A DNA stretch of 64,000 nucleotides, from assembly GCA_947853665.1 (NCBI GenBank), contig CANTXF010000012.1, forward strand, positions 1 to 64,000, given 5' to 3'. The DNA comes from an uncultured Deferribacterales bacterium (GTDB taxonomy: Bacteria > Chrysiogenota > Deferribacteres > Deferribacterales > Mucispirillaceae). The translations under genes were made by a program, and so were the position numbers. The notes under the pieces are model-generated. The model saw nothing but the letters and a program-made list of their open reading frames with translations, searched no databases and was not told the origin of the DNA. Every line of letters begins with the position of its first letter. Position 1 is the first letter of the stretch. Shown one piece after another: positions 6,718-13,025 of this stretch.

Positions 6718-7032
6718 TTACGAGACCAGCTTCAGCCCCACGGCTCCGCAGGCTATCATGGCGATAAAGAACACGTTAAAGGCCGTGGCCTTTTCACCGA
6801 ACAGGATAAACCCGGTAAGAGCGCTGCCCGCTGTGCCGATACCCGTCCAGACGGCGTAAGCAGTAGCCATAGGTATGGTTTTCATAGCGTAGGAAAGGAG
6901 GGAAAAGCTGACGGCGAAAGTGCAGACGCAGCCGAACACGAATATTTTTCTTTTGGTTTCCGAGTATTTTTTCATATTAATAACGCCTGCTATCTCGCAT
7001 AAACCGGCTATTATCATACATATCCAGGCCAT
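6718..7032 (-). CDS. ykkD: paired SMR-family exporter subunit, YkkD-like
   Basis: A 104-residue inner-membrane protein of the small multidrug resistance family with four predicted helices. Glu13 in helix 1 (GLCEIAG) is the conserved proton/substrate-coupling residue. SFSLLSYAMKTIPMATAYAVWTGIGTAG matches the central block of Bacillus YkkD, and the end AVGLKLVS is also shared. It lies one base downstream of the YkkC-like gene; YkkC/YkkD function as a heterodimer. Known YkkCD pairs export guanidinium and some cationic drugs; the substrate here is inferred. Confidence 0.85.
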   Translation of the reverse strand: MAWICMIIAGLCEIAGVINMKKYSETKRKIFVFGCVCTFAVSFSLLSYAMKTIPMATAYAVWTGIGTAGSALTGFILFGEKATAFNVFFIAMIACGAVGLKLVS

Positions 7033-7033
7033 A

Positions 7034-7345
7034 TCAGCGCCCCTTTCCCGTGATTTTAAGGCCGATGACCCCTAAAGCTATCATCGCGATAAAAAAAACC
7101 TGCTTTAAGGCTATCCCGCCGTTTATCACGGCCTCTGTCAAAACTATACCCACAGTTCCCACGCCGGTAAAAACGGCGTAGACAACGCCGACGGGCAGGC
7201 TGTCGTAAGCCTTCATAATAAGAAAAAAGCTCAAAGATATAACCGCCGCAACAAGGGCGTAGGTCCAGAAACTATCGGCGTATTTAAGCCCCATTACCCA
7301 GGGTATCTCAAGGAGACCCCCGGCAAAAACGTAAAGCCAGGCCAT
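7034..7345 (-). CDS. ykkC: paired SMR-family exporter subunit, YkkC-like
   Basis: The partner subunit has 103 residues and four predicted helices, with Glu13 in GGLLEIPWV and the YkkC-type blocks SLPVGVVYAVFTGVGTVG and IALGVIGLKITG. I place the start at ATG 7345 because GGAGGG lies just upstream; the upstream ATG at 7399 would add an 18-residue extension not usual in this family. It is co-transcribed with the YkkD-like gene. No guanidine-I (ykkC) riboswitch is recognisable in the 150 bases upstream, although such genes often carry one. Confidence 0.87.
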   Translation of the reverse strand: MAWLYVFAGGLLEIPWVMGLKYADSFWTYALVAAVISLSFFLIMKAYDSLPVGVVYAVFTGVGTVGIVLTEAVINGGIALKQVFFIAMIALGVIGLKITGKGR

Positions 7346-7427
7346 AAAACCCTCCAAAAACCGGCAAATGCAGGAAACCAGAAAAAATAGCACGCCCATT
7401 CTAAAAAGTAAAGGCGACTATACCCTA

Positions 7428-10325: not shown

Positions 10326-10355
10326 AATAAAAAACCCATTTCACAAGGAAATGGG
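10326..10355 (-). terminator. Rho-independent terminator of the flhG-cheW/cheZ unit
   Basis: On the minus strand CCCATTTC/GAAATGGG with a five-base loop (10355-10335) is followed by an uninterrupted T-run (A-run at 10328-10334 on the plus strand). It lies about 60 bases past the stop of the CheW-CheZ gene. Confidence 0.85.
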
Positions 10356-10417
10356 CATAAATATCACATTACGCAAAAAGAATACCCCTGCGCGGAAAAT
10401 ATCCGCCGCCGAAAATT

Positions 10418-12130
10418 TCAGGCTAACCCGTAATCTTCAAGCAGTTTTTCCGCCCGTTTATCGCTTTTAGGCTGCTGCACCTGCAAAAAGCCCACGATAG
10501 CGCCTATTCTCGCGCCCATATCCTCTATGGATTTGATGACCTTGCGCAGCTTTTGTTCCGTAATATCCTGAAATTCAAGAGCTTCCAGTATCTTAAAGCC
10601 AAGCTCCTCCGCTTTGGAAAGGTTGCCGCAGGTTTTGGCGTAAAGCTCGTTGAACTCCGCCTCGTGCTCTTTATCCGCCAGGCTTTTGAGCTTTTTAATA
10701 TCTTCTATGAAATCCTTGTAAAAACCGGACATACTGTCTGAAGCGTCCATAAGATTAAAGGCGGCTTTTTCCGTAGTGTCGTTTACGTCCTCCAGCACGG
10801 AAGCCACATTGGGGATAGCCTCCTGAGACGCTTTTATAAACGGATTTATTTCGTCGACCTTGGTTTTAGTATCTATGATAAGCCGGAGCAGCTCGCCGAT
10901 CTCCCCTTTTATATCAAGGTTAAGGCTTGCAGGCTCCTCGCCGGAAATGATCTTGTCGGCTATGCGCTTTAACTCTTTTATGGATACCCTGACGGATTCG
11001 GAATCGGTTTTCGCTTCGGCTTCCGAAATAACCGGCCCGTCTACGACATTGTCGGGAGAGACGGATACGGACGGTTCCCCGTCATTTTTTTTTTCCGTTT
11101 CGCCCCTTTCTTCCCGGTGGCGGCGGTTAAGCTCGTCCGTTTCGGCTTCCCTTTTGGCAAGCTCCTGAGCTATGAGAGAATCCAGGTCTCCCTGGTCTAT
11201 ATGCTGGTCGTTATCTTCCGCCGTTTTAAAAATGGCGGAGCTTTGGGCAAGAGCGTCGGCTAAAACTTCTTCACTGCTTGGCTGAGAGCCCGTTCTTTTT
11301 TTTTTATTCAGTTCTTCAGTCTCGGCTTCCCTTTTGGCAAGCTCTTTCGCGATAAGGGCGTCGATATCCCCCTCTACCTCCGCGTCGGCGGATGCGGCGG
11401 CTTCTTCCACCGGGGCTGCGGAAACGGGAGCTTCTTCCTTTATCTCCGATATTACGGGAGAAGGGACCTCATCCGGCCTGGGAAGGTCGTCCTTAACGGG
11501 AGTTTCATGGGCGGAGATTTCCTCCTCCGGCTCGTCGTGCACGGATATTGCGGGAATCTCCTCCTGGGGCTGAACCGCCGGAGCAGGAGCGGGAAGCTGC
11601 TGATTTTTAGCGGAGGAACCGAGCATTTTCTTGCGCAGCTCGCTTTCTATATGCTCCCCGCTTTCGTTAAGCACCCGGTCAATGTCCAGAAGCATTATAA
11701 GGCGGGAGTCGTATTTGCATATACCGAGGATATATTCCTGGCCTATGGAGCCTACAAGGGGAGGCGTAGGCTCCACCATGGATTTGCGTATTCTTATAAC
11801 TTCCGTAACTTCGTCCACCACGAAGCCTATATACTGCCTTTCAAAACGCACGACGATAATCCTTGTGGATTTGTCGAAATCGCATTTATCCAGACTGAAG
11901 CGCACCCTAAGGTCTATAACGGGGATAACCTTGCCGCGAAGGTTCATAACGCCCAAAATAAAAGAATCCATTCTGGGCACCACGGTAATTTCCACGGTAC
12001 GGATTATTTCCTGAATTTTAAGAACGTCTATGGCGTATTCCTCGTCCCCCAGCTTCATTCCAACAAGCTGGACGACCTCGGCTTCGTCGCTCAATATTTC
12101 GACGTCTTCTTTTTCATGAATTTCATTCAT
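10418..12130 (-). CDS. CheW-CheZ fusion protein with duplicated linker motif
   Basis: The 570-residue protein joins two chemotaxis modules. Residues about 20-160 are a CheW-like adaptor domain (VGMKLGDEEYAIDVLKIQEI, VMNLRGKVIPVIDLR, ILGICKYDSRLIMLLDI). Residues about 170-375 are an acidic, proline-rich linker containing two near-identical 25-residue units (252-276 and 312-336; core LIA.ELAKREAET.ELN). Residues about 375-570 resemble CheZ, the CheY-phosphate phosphatase: FQDITEQKLRKV carries the expected Asp522 and Gln526, and the tail LLEDYGLA resembles the CheY-binding C-terminus of CheZ. The fusion would place CheY-P dephosphorylation at receptor arrays. The gene overlaps flhG by eight bases and is followed by a terminator. 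Domain calls are by eye; the CheZ assignment rests mainly on the DxxxQ helix and tail. Confidence 0.82.
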   Translation of the reverse strand: MNEIHEKEDVEILSDEAEVVQLVGMKLGDEEYAIDVLKIQEIIRTVEITVVPRMDSFILGVMNLRGKVIPVIDLRVRFSLDKCDFDKSTRIIVVRFERQYIGFVVDEVTEVIRIRKSMVEPTPPLVGSIGQEYILGICKYDSRLIMLLDIDRVLNESGEHIESELRKKMLGSSAKNQQLPAPAPAVQPQEEIPAISVHDEPEEEISAHETPVKDDLPRPDEVPSPVISEIKEEAPVSAAPVEEAAASADAEVEGDIDALIAKELAKREAETEELNKKKRTGSQPSSEEVLADALAQSSAIFKTAEDNDQHIDQGDLDSLIAQELAKREAETDELNRRHREERGETEKKNDGEPSVSVSPDNVVDGPVISEAEAKTDSESVRVSIKELKRIADKIISGEEPASLNLDIKGEIGELLRLIIDTKTKVDEINPFIKASQEAIPNVASVLEDVNDTTEKAAFNLMDASDSMSGFYKDFIEDIKKLKSLADKEHEAEFNELYAKTCGNLSKAEELGFKILEALEFQDITEQKLRKVIKSIEDMGARIGAIVGFLQVQQPKSDKRAEKLLEDYGLA

Positions 12131-13025
12131 TTCCTGACCCCTGAAGTTTAGCTATCATCTGGTCGCGTATATCGTCCACGCAGCCTACAGTCTCGCTGTC
12201 CGGAAACCGGACGTAATAAGGTTTAAGCAGTTTGATACACTCGCTTACTTTTTCATCATAAGGTAAAAAGCCAAGTTTTTCAATGGTAATACTCAAATAT
12301 TTATTAACTACGTTTTCAAAGCCGTAGAATACATTAAGCTCCCTTTTGAATTTTACCTGGTTCAGAATCATGCCCGGCCTGAAAGCCGAAACGAAAGATT
12401 TTATCGCCGCCGCCGCCGCTTTATCCACCGCCGCGGCCGCATCTATTATAGACTGGACGCTTGGGAAATTCATGCTTTTGCTGCGGAGCTTTTTATTGAT
12501 TTCGGCAAAATCCCACCGTTTAGACAAAAAACGCTCTATGTGCCTGTATATGGCGACCTTTAAAAAACCGTAGGCGTTTTCTATGGAGGTAGGCTCGCCG
12601 CTCATGACGACTATCTTTATATCGGCCACGTTGAACATATCGACCATATTAAAGCTGGTGCCTGCTCCAAGGTCGAGTATAACGTACTCGTAATCCTCGT
12701 TTTTAAGGCCGGTAAGTATTTTTATCTTTTCAAATTTGGTAATATGGGCCATGCCGAGAACGTCGCCGGAACCGCCTATGAAATCCACCCCGGCGGGGGA
12801 TCTTACTATAACGTCCGAAAGCTCGGAGCGCTCCCTTATATAATTGTAAAGGCCCACGCCCGGAACCTTGAGCCCGACGAAATTGTGAAGATTGGCCCCG
12901 CCCAGGTCCGCGTCAACGAGGAGAACCTTATGCCCGGCGGCGTTAAGAGAAATGGCAAGGCTGGAGGAACAGAAACTTTTACCTACGCCGCCTTTTCCGC
13001 TTGCAATGGATATGAGCTTTGCCAT
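12123..13025 (-). CDS. flhG: MinD/ParA-family ATPase, FlhG-like
   Basis: A 300-residue deviant-Walker ATPase: SGKGGVGKSF at residues 9-18, LLVDADLGGANLH, and YEYVILDLGAGTSFNMVDMF. FlhG proteins set flagellar number with FlhF and the C-ring. The pairing with a chemotaxis gene (eight-base overlap) favours FlhG over cell-division MinD. No amphipathic C-terminal membrane helix of the MinD type is evident; the C-terminal part (about residues 170-300) is not of canonical FlhG sequence and is the least certain portion. It has its own predicted promoter. Confidence 0.78.
   Translation of the reverse strand: MAKLISIASGKGGVGKSFCSSSLAISLNAAGHKVLLVDADLGGANLHNFVGLKVPGVGLYNYIRERSELSDVIVRSPAGVDFIGGSGDVLGMAHITKFEKIKILTGLKNEDYEYVILDLGAGTSFNMVDMFNVADIKIVVMSGEPTSIENAYGFLKVAIYRHIERFLSKRWDFAEINKKLRSKSMNFPSVQSIIDAAAAVDKAAAAAIKSFVSAFRPGMILNQVKFKRELNVFYGFENVVNKYLSITIEKLGFLPYDEKVSECIKLLKPYYVRFPDSETVGCVDDIRDQMIAKLQGSGNE

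Follow-up and report, generated by a model that had tools for sequence, protein, structure and literature searches.

The window, that is, the whole stretch of 64,000 nucleotides that was analysed, contains on its minus strand a gene (10418..12130) that starts with ATG and encodes, in the direct frame, a protein of 570 amino acids. The protein joins a CheW domain to a CheZ-like region through a long linker, and this CheW-CheZ fusion is real. Upstream on the same strand lies the gene of a MinD/FlhG-like ATPase of 300 amino acids (12123..13025), the open reading frame (ORF) of which shares 8 nt (12123-12130) with the start of the fusion gene. A terminator-like hairpin with a T tail was found behind the fusion gene (10334..10356, minus strand; 9 pairs, 4 of them G-C, followed by TTTTTATT). 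The gene had been predicted to end in a strong terminator, and the hairpin agrees with this claim, but a scan of this kind gives matches in shuffled sequence too. Elsewhere in the window, two adjacent small membrane proteins of 104 and 121 amino acids (6718-7399) resemble a paired SMR-type transporter.

Domains and distribution of the fusion protein

The N-terminal part of the protein (residues 21-156; 11663..12070, minus strand) was matched by the Pfam family PF01584 (CheW) with an E-value of 1.7e-39. It also matches solved CheW structures at 1e-27 and takes a beta fold in the AlphaFold2 model, in agreement with the CheW domain that had been predicted at about residues 20-160. No match to the Response_reg domain, the C-terminal receiver by which CheV is recognized, was found in the Pfam search of the fusion protein, and beyond CheW and CheZ this search gave no other match of note.

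The C-terminal region (residues 384-570; 10421..10981, minus strand) is CheZ-like. The Pfam family PF04344 (CheZ) matches residues 409-557 with an E-value of 2.5e-7 and 31.2 bits, against a gathering score of 30.7. When a profile built from the corresponding part of 33 homologs was compared with the PDB, the best chain was E. coli CheZ (1kmi_Z, E 7.4e-12). In the profile alignment, DITEQ of the fusion lies over DLTGQ of 1kmi_Z, so that Asp522 (codon at 10565..10567, minus strand) and Gln526 (codon at 10553..10555, minus strand) fall on Asp143 and Gln147 of E. coli CheZ, respectively. The C-terminal tail, RAEKLLEDYGLA (10421..10459, minus strand), resembles a CheY-docking peptide, its KLLEDYGLA being aligned over DDLLDSLGF, the CheY-binding tail of E. 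coli CheZ; one Leu and one Gly of the tail are invariant in the alignment of the homologs. Residues E519, F520, D522 and Q526 are invariant in 23 full-length homologs, and the Asp/Gln pair is kept in all aligned homologs, both fused and split. In the AlphaFold2 model, the C-terminal part folds into a long hairpin of helices, with the tail as a helix of its own (H36-112, H116-178 and H184-192; mean pLDDT 72.8). In a Foldseek search of the hairpin against the PDB, CheZ was absent from the 50 best matches, which were generic coiled hairpins only. Since Foldseek did not discriminate among coiled hairpins, the assignment to CheZ rests on the profiles and the residues, not on the fold alone. The CheZ region, its catalytic pair and its docking-like tail, all of which belonged to the original prediction, were borne out by these results. 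From the conserved residues we infer that the hairpin would dephosphorylate CheY-P through Asp522 and Gln526. The CheW domain would place the fusion in the chemoreceptor array, and the natural reading is that the phosphatase is brought to the arrays through CheW.

In a search of 60 related genomes, the fusion was found throughout the Deferribacterales and also in a group that branches deeper within the phylum. Named homologs come from Denitrovibrio, Seleniivibrio, Calditerrivibrio and Mucispirillum, the Mucispirillum proteins being 67-70% identical over the CheZ region. The window would accordingly belong to a Deferribacterales relative of Mucispirillum. The CheW profile matches all 23 full-length homologs, and the CheZ profile matches 22 of the 23 at E <= 0.01. 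A contig search with the CheZ alignment as query gave 35 loci; the same kind of search with the single fusion protein as query gave no match. Among 290 genomes searched, CheZ matches from other phyla lie mostly in frames of 190-310 amino acids, which are too short for a fusion; the few longer frames are those of G130 and G271, of about 420 amino acids, and that of G073, of 613 amino acids with a weak match. No CheZ, fused or separate, was matched in two genomes of family f3 (G016, G023) and two of family f9 (G046, G047), relatives that have apparently lost at least CheZ, or chemotaxis as a whole.

Linker repeats, upstream ATPase and separate CheZ

The linker (residues 166-380) is acidic, as had been claimed, with 25% Asp and Glu, and it is also rich in Lys and Glu. 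It is not featureless, however, because conserved helical repeats lie inside it. Repeat 1 (DIDALIAKELAKREAETEELNK, residues 255-276; 11303..11368, minus strand) and repeat 2 (DLDSLIAQELAKREAETDELNR, residues 315-336; 11123..11188, minus strand) were recognized by their conservation among the homologs. Both are predicted to be helical (helices 256-279 and 313-346 in the AlphaFold2 model) and are the highest-scored parts of the linker. The consensus, (Q)(D)(I/L)DxLIAxELAKREAETEEL, occurs twice in the linker and three to four times in that of the outgroup. In repeat 2, D317, I320, E323, L324, R327, E328 and E330 are invariant in 23 homologs, while the remaining linker can hardly be aligned. In genus g2 (L034, L035, L036), SLLDTAD-like tandem repeats, varying in number, were also seen in the linker, on the 3' side of its A run.

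The core of the repeat resembles both the N-terminus of FliM from the same genome (LSQDEIDALL; MADILSQDEIDALL) and the CheZ tails of the family (SQDDIDKLL). The motif Q[DEN][DE][ILV]D.[LM][ILM] is found in repeat 2, in the tails of many homologs and in this FliM, and it occurs not once in 86,234 residues of neighbouring ORFs. FliM and CheZ are known to bind the same face of CheY (PMC3774744). Since the repeats resemble the peptides of both proteins, they are candidate CheY docking sites, and together with the C-terminal tail they would dock CheY to the fusion. The second half of the repeat is also conserved and continues as a ELAKREAETEEL helix without a counterpart in FliM. This half could bind something else, for example the ATPase.

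The fusion gene had been described as cotranscribed with flhG. This holds in part only: an ATPase gene does lie directly upstream, but the partner is a second MinD/FlhG-like ATPase. The DQAxxLR N-terminal motif and an flhF neighbour are both missing from the window ATPase, which begins MAKLISIASGKGGVGKS; the canonical flhG (DQAYSLR) adjoins flhF on contig 17. Since the motif and the flhF neighbour belong to the contig-17 gene, the window ATPase is not the flagellar FlhG. The gene of this same MinD/FlhG-like ATPase is found immediately upstream in nearly all homologous loci, both in the order and in the outgroup.

The constancy of this neighbour allows another interpretation, namely that the main job of the fusion is to serve as the array-side partner of the upstream ATPase, by which the arrays would be kept at the pole, and that the repeats bind the ATPase and not CheY. 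In Vibrio, ParP couples a CheW-like AIF domain to the ATPase ParC (PMC5706961). The overlap of the two ORFs in the window and the continuation of the repeats into a helix that FliM lacks are in line with such a role. The array domain of ParP is C-terminal, however, whereas the CheW domain of the fusion is N-terminal, and such a role would not account for the CheZ half, in which the catalytic pair is invariant. We regard this interpretation as possible but rather unlikely. It is compatible with our preferred reading, an array-bound CheY-P phosphatase made together with a shorter adaptor, and the two can hold together.

The chemotaxis genes of the same genome were surveyed as well. The cluster on contig 17 consists of flhB, flhA, flhF, flhG, fliA, cheB, fliM, a FliN-like gene, cheY, cheZ, cheA with a receiver and, further on, cheR, some of these names having been assigned by reading the translations. 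The CheA of this cluster (L060:10347-12464) carries its receiver at the C-terminus (CheAY type), a possible phosphate sink. One single CheW and one CheV are encoded elsewhere in the genome. The genome also encodes two CheX-like proteins, and the fusion is therefore not its sole candidate CheY-P phosphatase.

A separate CheZ is encoded between cheY and cheA (L060 9709-10335, contig 17). A separate cheZ, combined with loss of Asp522/Gln526 in the orthologs, had been named as evidence against the original prediction. The separate gene exists, but the loss is reversed: the fusion is intact and the separate CheZ is degenerate. The latter reads LEFKEATKQ at the catalytic site, with Asp changed to Glu. 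Both catalytic residues are changed in the separate CheZ of Mucispirillum (KEVTKA or KEVTKS) and of genus g2 (KESSIS), whereas most other families have QDITKQ. The degenerate proteins still have the CheY-docking tail. Since the fusion keeps both catalytic residues everywhere, these facts suggest that in the family of this genome the fusion has probably taken over the job of the separate CheZ. The separate CheZ may have turned into a CheY-binding protein without phosphatase activity. As a whole, the original prediction is partly supported.

Poly-A tracts and reading frames

A run of ten A residues stands behind each repeat. Tract 2 (11085..11094, minus strand), in the context GAA AAA AAA AAT GAC behind repeat 2, is a candidate site of programmed slippage; one added A there leads at once to a TGA (11082..11084, minus strand) and would give a short product of about 349 amino acids. 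Tract 1 (11296..11305, minus strand), behind repeat 1, is a second candidate. A comparable run was seen in family f6, 17-32 nt behind repeat 1, where adding one A brings a stop in no more than two codons. Given tract 1 and this quick stop, a third, shorter product would be possible.

The runs are unlikely to be there by chance. Only five runs in the genome (2.43 Mb) reach 10 A or more. Of these, two lie inside the fusion gene (1.7 kb) and the other three are intergenic; the chance of two such runs in this gene is about 1e-6. For the single runs in the fusion genes of other genomes, P is 0.002-0.005 each, the genera that share the run not being independent samples. A linker run of at least 10 A is found in 17 of 18 genera, even at 57% GC, and in 16 of them it stands behind the last repeat; the sole exception is g19, the linker of which has no such run. 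Nearly all in-frame homologs of the order have 10-13 A behind repeat 2, that of g7 having its run behind repeat 1, and in two of the three outgroup genera an A10 lies between the repeats and CheZ, i.e. nearer to CheZ. Where the sequence could be written as A10, this gene uses A10 at 31 of 52 sites, whereas the 301 neighbouring ORFs use it at none of their 25 (Fisher P 6e-8, a value overstated by the relatedness of the sequences). Lys is encoded by AAA about equally in the two sets (69 and 67%), and the excess of A10 is therefore not explained by codon choice.

In all homologs of the order that are in frame, adding a single A brings a stop among the first three codons; a conserved Asn-Asp/Glu pair that follows the run accounts for part of this. 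The frame of the CheW half differs from that of the CheZ half in the four genera g2, g6, g11 and g16. The break falls exactly at a run of 10-14 A just behind repeat 2. The CheW frame ends 0-3 codons after the run; the shifted frame stays open across the junction over about 200-430 codons, mostly up to the end of CheZ. In two of the loci (L039 and L041), joining the frames needs a +1 shift or one A fewer. No convincing start with a Shine-Dalgarno sequence for a separate cheZ was seen in the frame-broken homologs. In three g2 genomes the stretch from the run to CheZ stays open with indels in whole codons, and the CheZ half shows third-position biases of 14/15/49, 11/10/54 and 15/8/44. These facts indicate that the CheZ of the frame-broken genera is under purifying selection. 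In one g16 genome (G042, locus L042), the CheZ frame has further stops (TAG, TAA), which may reflect a decaying copy, a second frame change or a sequence error. Assembly error was considered as the cause of the split frames and rejected, since the same break, always at the run, recurs in G041, a genome on a single contig, in two more members of its genus and in four g2 genomes.

With a stop just behind the run in both arrangements, the same pair of products would result, namely CheW with the repeats, and CheW with the repeats and CheZ. On the tree, the frame state has switched three to four times, which is what one would expect of two workable states. The run could, of course, merely encode a Lys-rich linker in a plain fusion that was split into cheW and cheZ in some lineages. 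The composition of the linker agrees with this, and the adjacent ORFs of the four genera do resemble two genes. Several facts speak against it: A10 is rare elsewhere and is kept even at 57% GC, the shifted frame meets a stop at once, the breaks fall exactly on the run, and the CheZ frame is open across the junction and lacks a convincing start. This is the least probable of the explanations considered here.

Another possibility is that the run is a contingency locus, at which changes of length during replication would turn CheZ on and off in sub-populations. A homopolymer run inside a motility gene and the switches of frame state on the tree would suit phase variation, of which poly-AT has been named as a possible cause (PMC3711429). 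The frame state is, however, constant within each sampled genus: the frame is intact in about ten Mucispirillum genomes and broken in four genomes of g2. In g12, where the run has 11, 12 or 13 A, neighbouring changes hold the frame every time. Because of this constancy and compensation, we consider phase variation very unlikely.

The two products could also arise by programmed -1 (or +1) frameshifting of the ribosome on the run. Heptamers of the A_AAA_AAG/A type lie within it, a -1 shift and one added A lead into the same frame, and strong hairpins stand 3' of the tract in some genomes (z -5.0, -4.3 and -3.5 in L047, L043 and L058, respectively). A hairpin conserved in all members as a stimulator was not found, though, and L005, L015 and L066 have no strong hairpin behind the tract; runs of 10-14 A exceed what a ribosome needs, and the shift required in L039 and L041 fits polymerase slippage better. 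Slippage of the RNA polymerase is preferred because of the long runs, the lack of a conserved stimulatory hairpin and the two cases that need the opposite shift, and ribosomal frameshifting appears improbable.

Proposed mechanism and comparison with known systems

On the basis of these results, we propose that an array-bound CheY-P phosphatase and a shorter adaptor are made from one gene by slippage at A10, a reading that we hold with fair confidence. The RNA polymerase, or less likely the ribosome, would slip at the A10 behind repeat 2. In the present genome, direct reading would give the fusion and one added A would give the protein of CheW plus repeats; in Denitrovibrio and three other genera the roles would be reversed and the fusion would be made by slippage. 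The rate of slippage would then set the amount of phosphatase in the array, and positioning of the protein or the array may fall to the upstream ATPase. In a wider form, polymerase slippage on a selected A run would act throughout the phylum as a recoding switch that fixes the ratio of two array components in either frame arrangement, with a dedicated MinD-like ATPase placing both and with the ordinary CheZ replaced and decaying in the gut lineages. For this wider form the chances appear about even.

The conserved repeats and the poly-A site, which the original prediction had missed, imply that the gene makes two products and weigh more than the fusion itself. Judging from the sequences compared, the run in the linker probably lets the cell make adaptor-only and adaptor-phosphatase forms from one gene. 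If so, it would be a case of programmed slippage with unusual conservation and a clear reason for two products, an adaptor with and without phosphatase. Mixed A counts in RNA-seq reads and two protein sizes are predicted, and automatic annotation would label some homologs as separate cheW and cheZ or as frameshifted genes. A partial search of the literature gave no description of CheW fused to CheZ, of slippage in any gene for chemotaxis or of the linker repeats. The architecture may be listed without comment in domain databases. CheW, CheZ and poly-A slippage are each already known; what the papers searched did not contain is the fusion in a whole phylum, its repeats and, most notably, a slippage site shared by a phylum in a gene for chemotaxis.

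The fusion shares with CheZ (PF04344; E. coli 1KMI) the Asp/Gln pair, the helical hairpin and the C-terminal docking tail. It differs from CheZ in that these parts sit behind a CheW domain and a 215-residue linker with repeats, and in the proposed partial expression through the poly-A site. The domain of CheW itself is shared. CheV likewise combines a CheW domain with another signalling domain, but the partner is a receiver in CheV and a phosphatase in the fusion. In E. coli, CheZ is recruited to the array by CheA-short, and the two CheA products arise from two start codons. What the two systems would share is an array-located phosphatase and a gene that yields two products; the link, however, is covalent in the fusion, and its two products are proposed to come from a frame change. 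If this is true, the fusion is a natural covalent form of array-localised CheY-P dephosphorylation, a job that needs CheA-short in E. coli.

As in ParC/ParP of Vibrio, the gene of a ParA/MinD-type ATPase stands beside a gene with a CheW-like domain. ParP has an ATPase-binding N-terminus and a C-terminal array domain, whereas the fusion has an N-terminal CheW domain and a CheZ half, and the neighbouring ATPase, unlike ParC, resembles FlhG. The long conserved A run at the frame junction and two sensible products, one of which ends right behind the run, are features by which the fusion gene resembles genes of programmed transcriptional realignment. The closest parallel among these is tssM, in which an A11 run gives about 20% slippage and both length variants are needed (PMC4256274). 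In Citrobacter rodentium and Yersinia pseudotuberculosis, the tssM genes have opposite frame arrangements, so that slippage makes the long form in one and the short form in the other (PMC4256274). The fusion gene would likewise give short and long variants at an A run, as deduced here from sequence. The tssM genes are two isolated cases, whereas the run of the fusion gene is kept across a phylum, in a chemotaxis gene.
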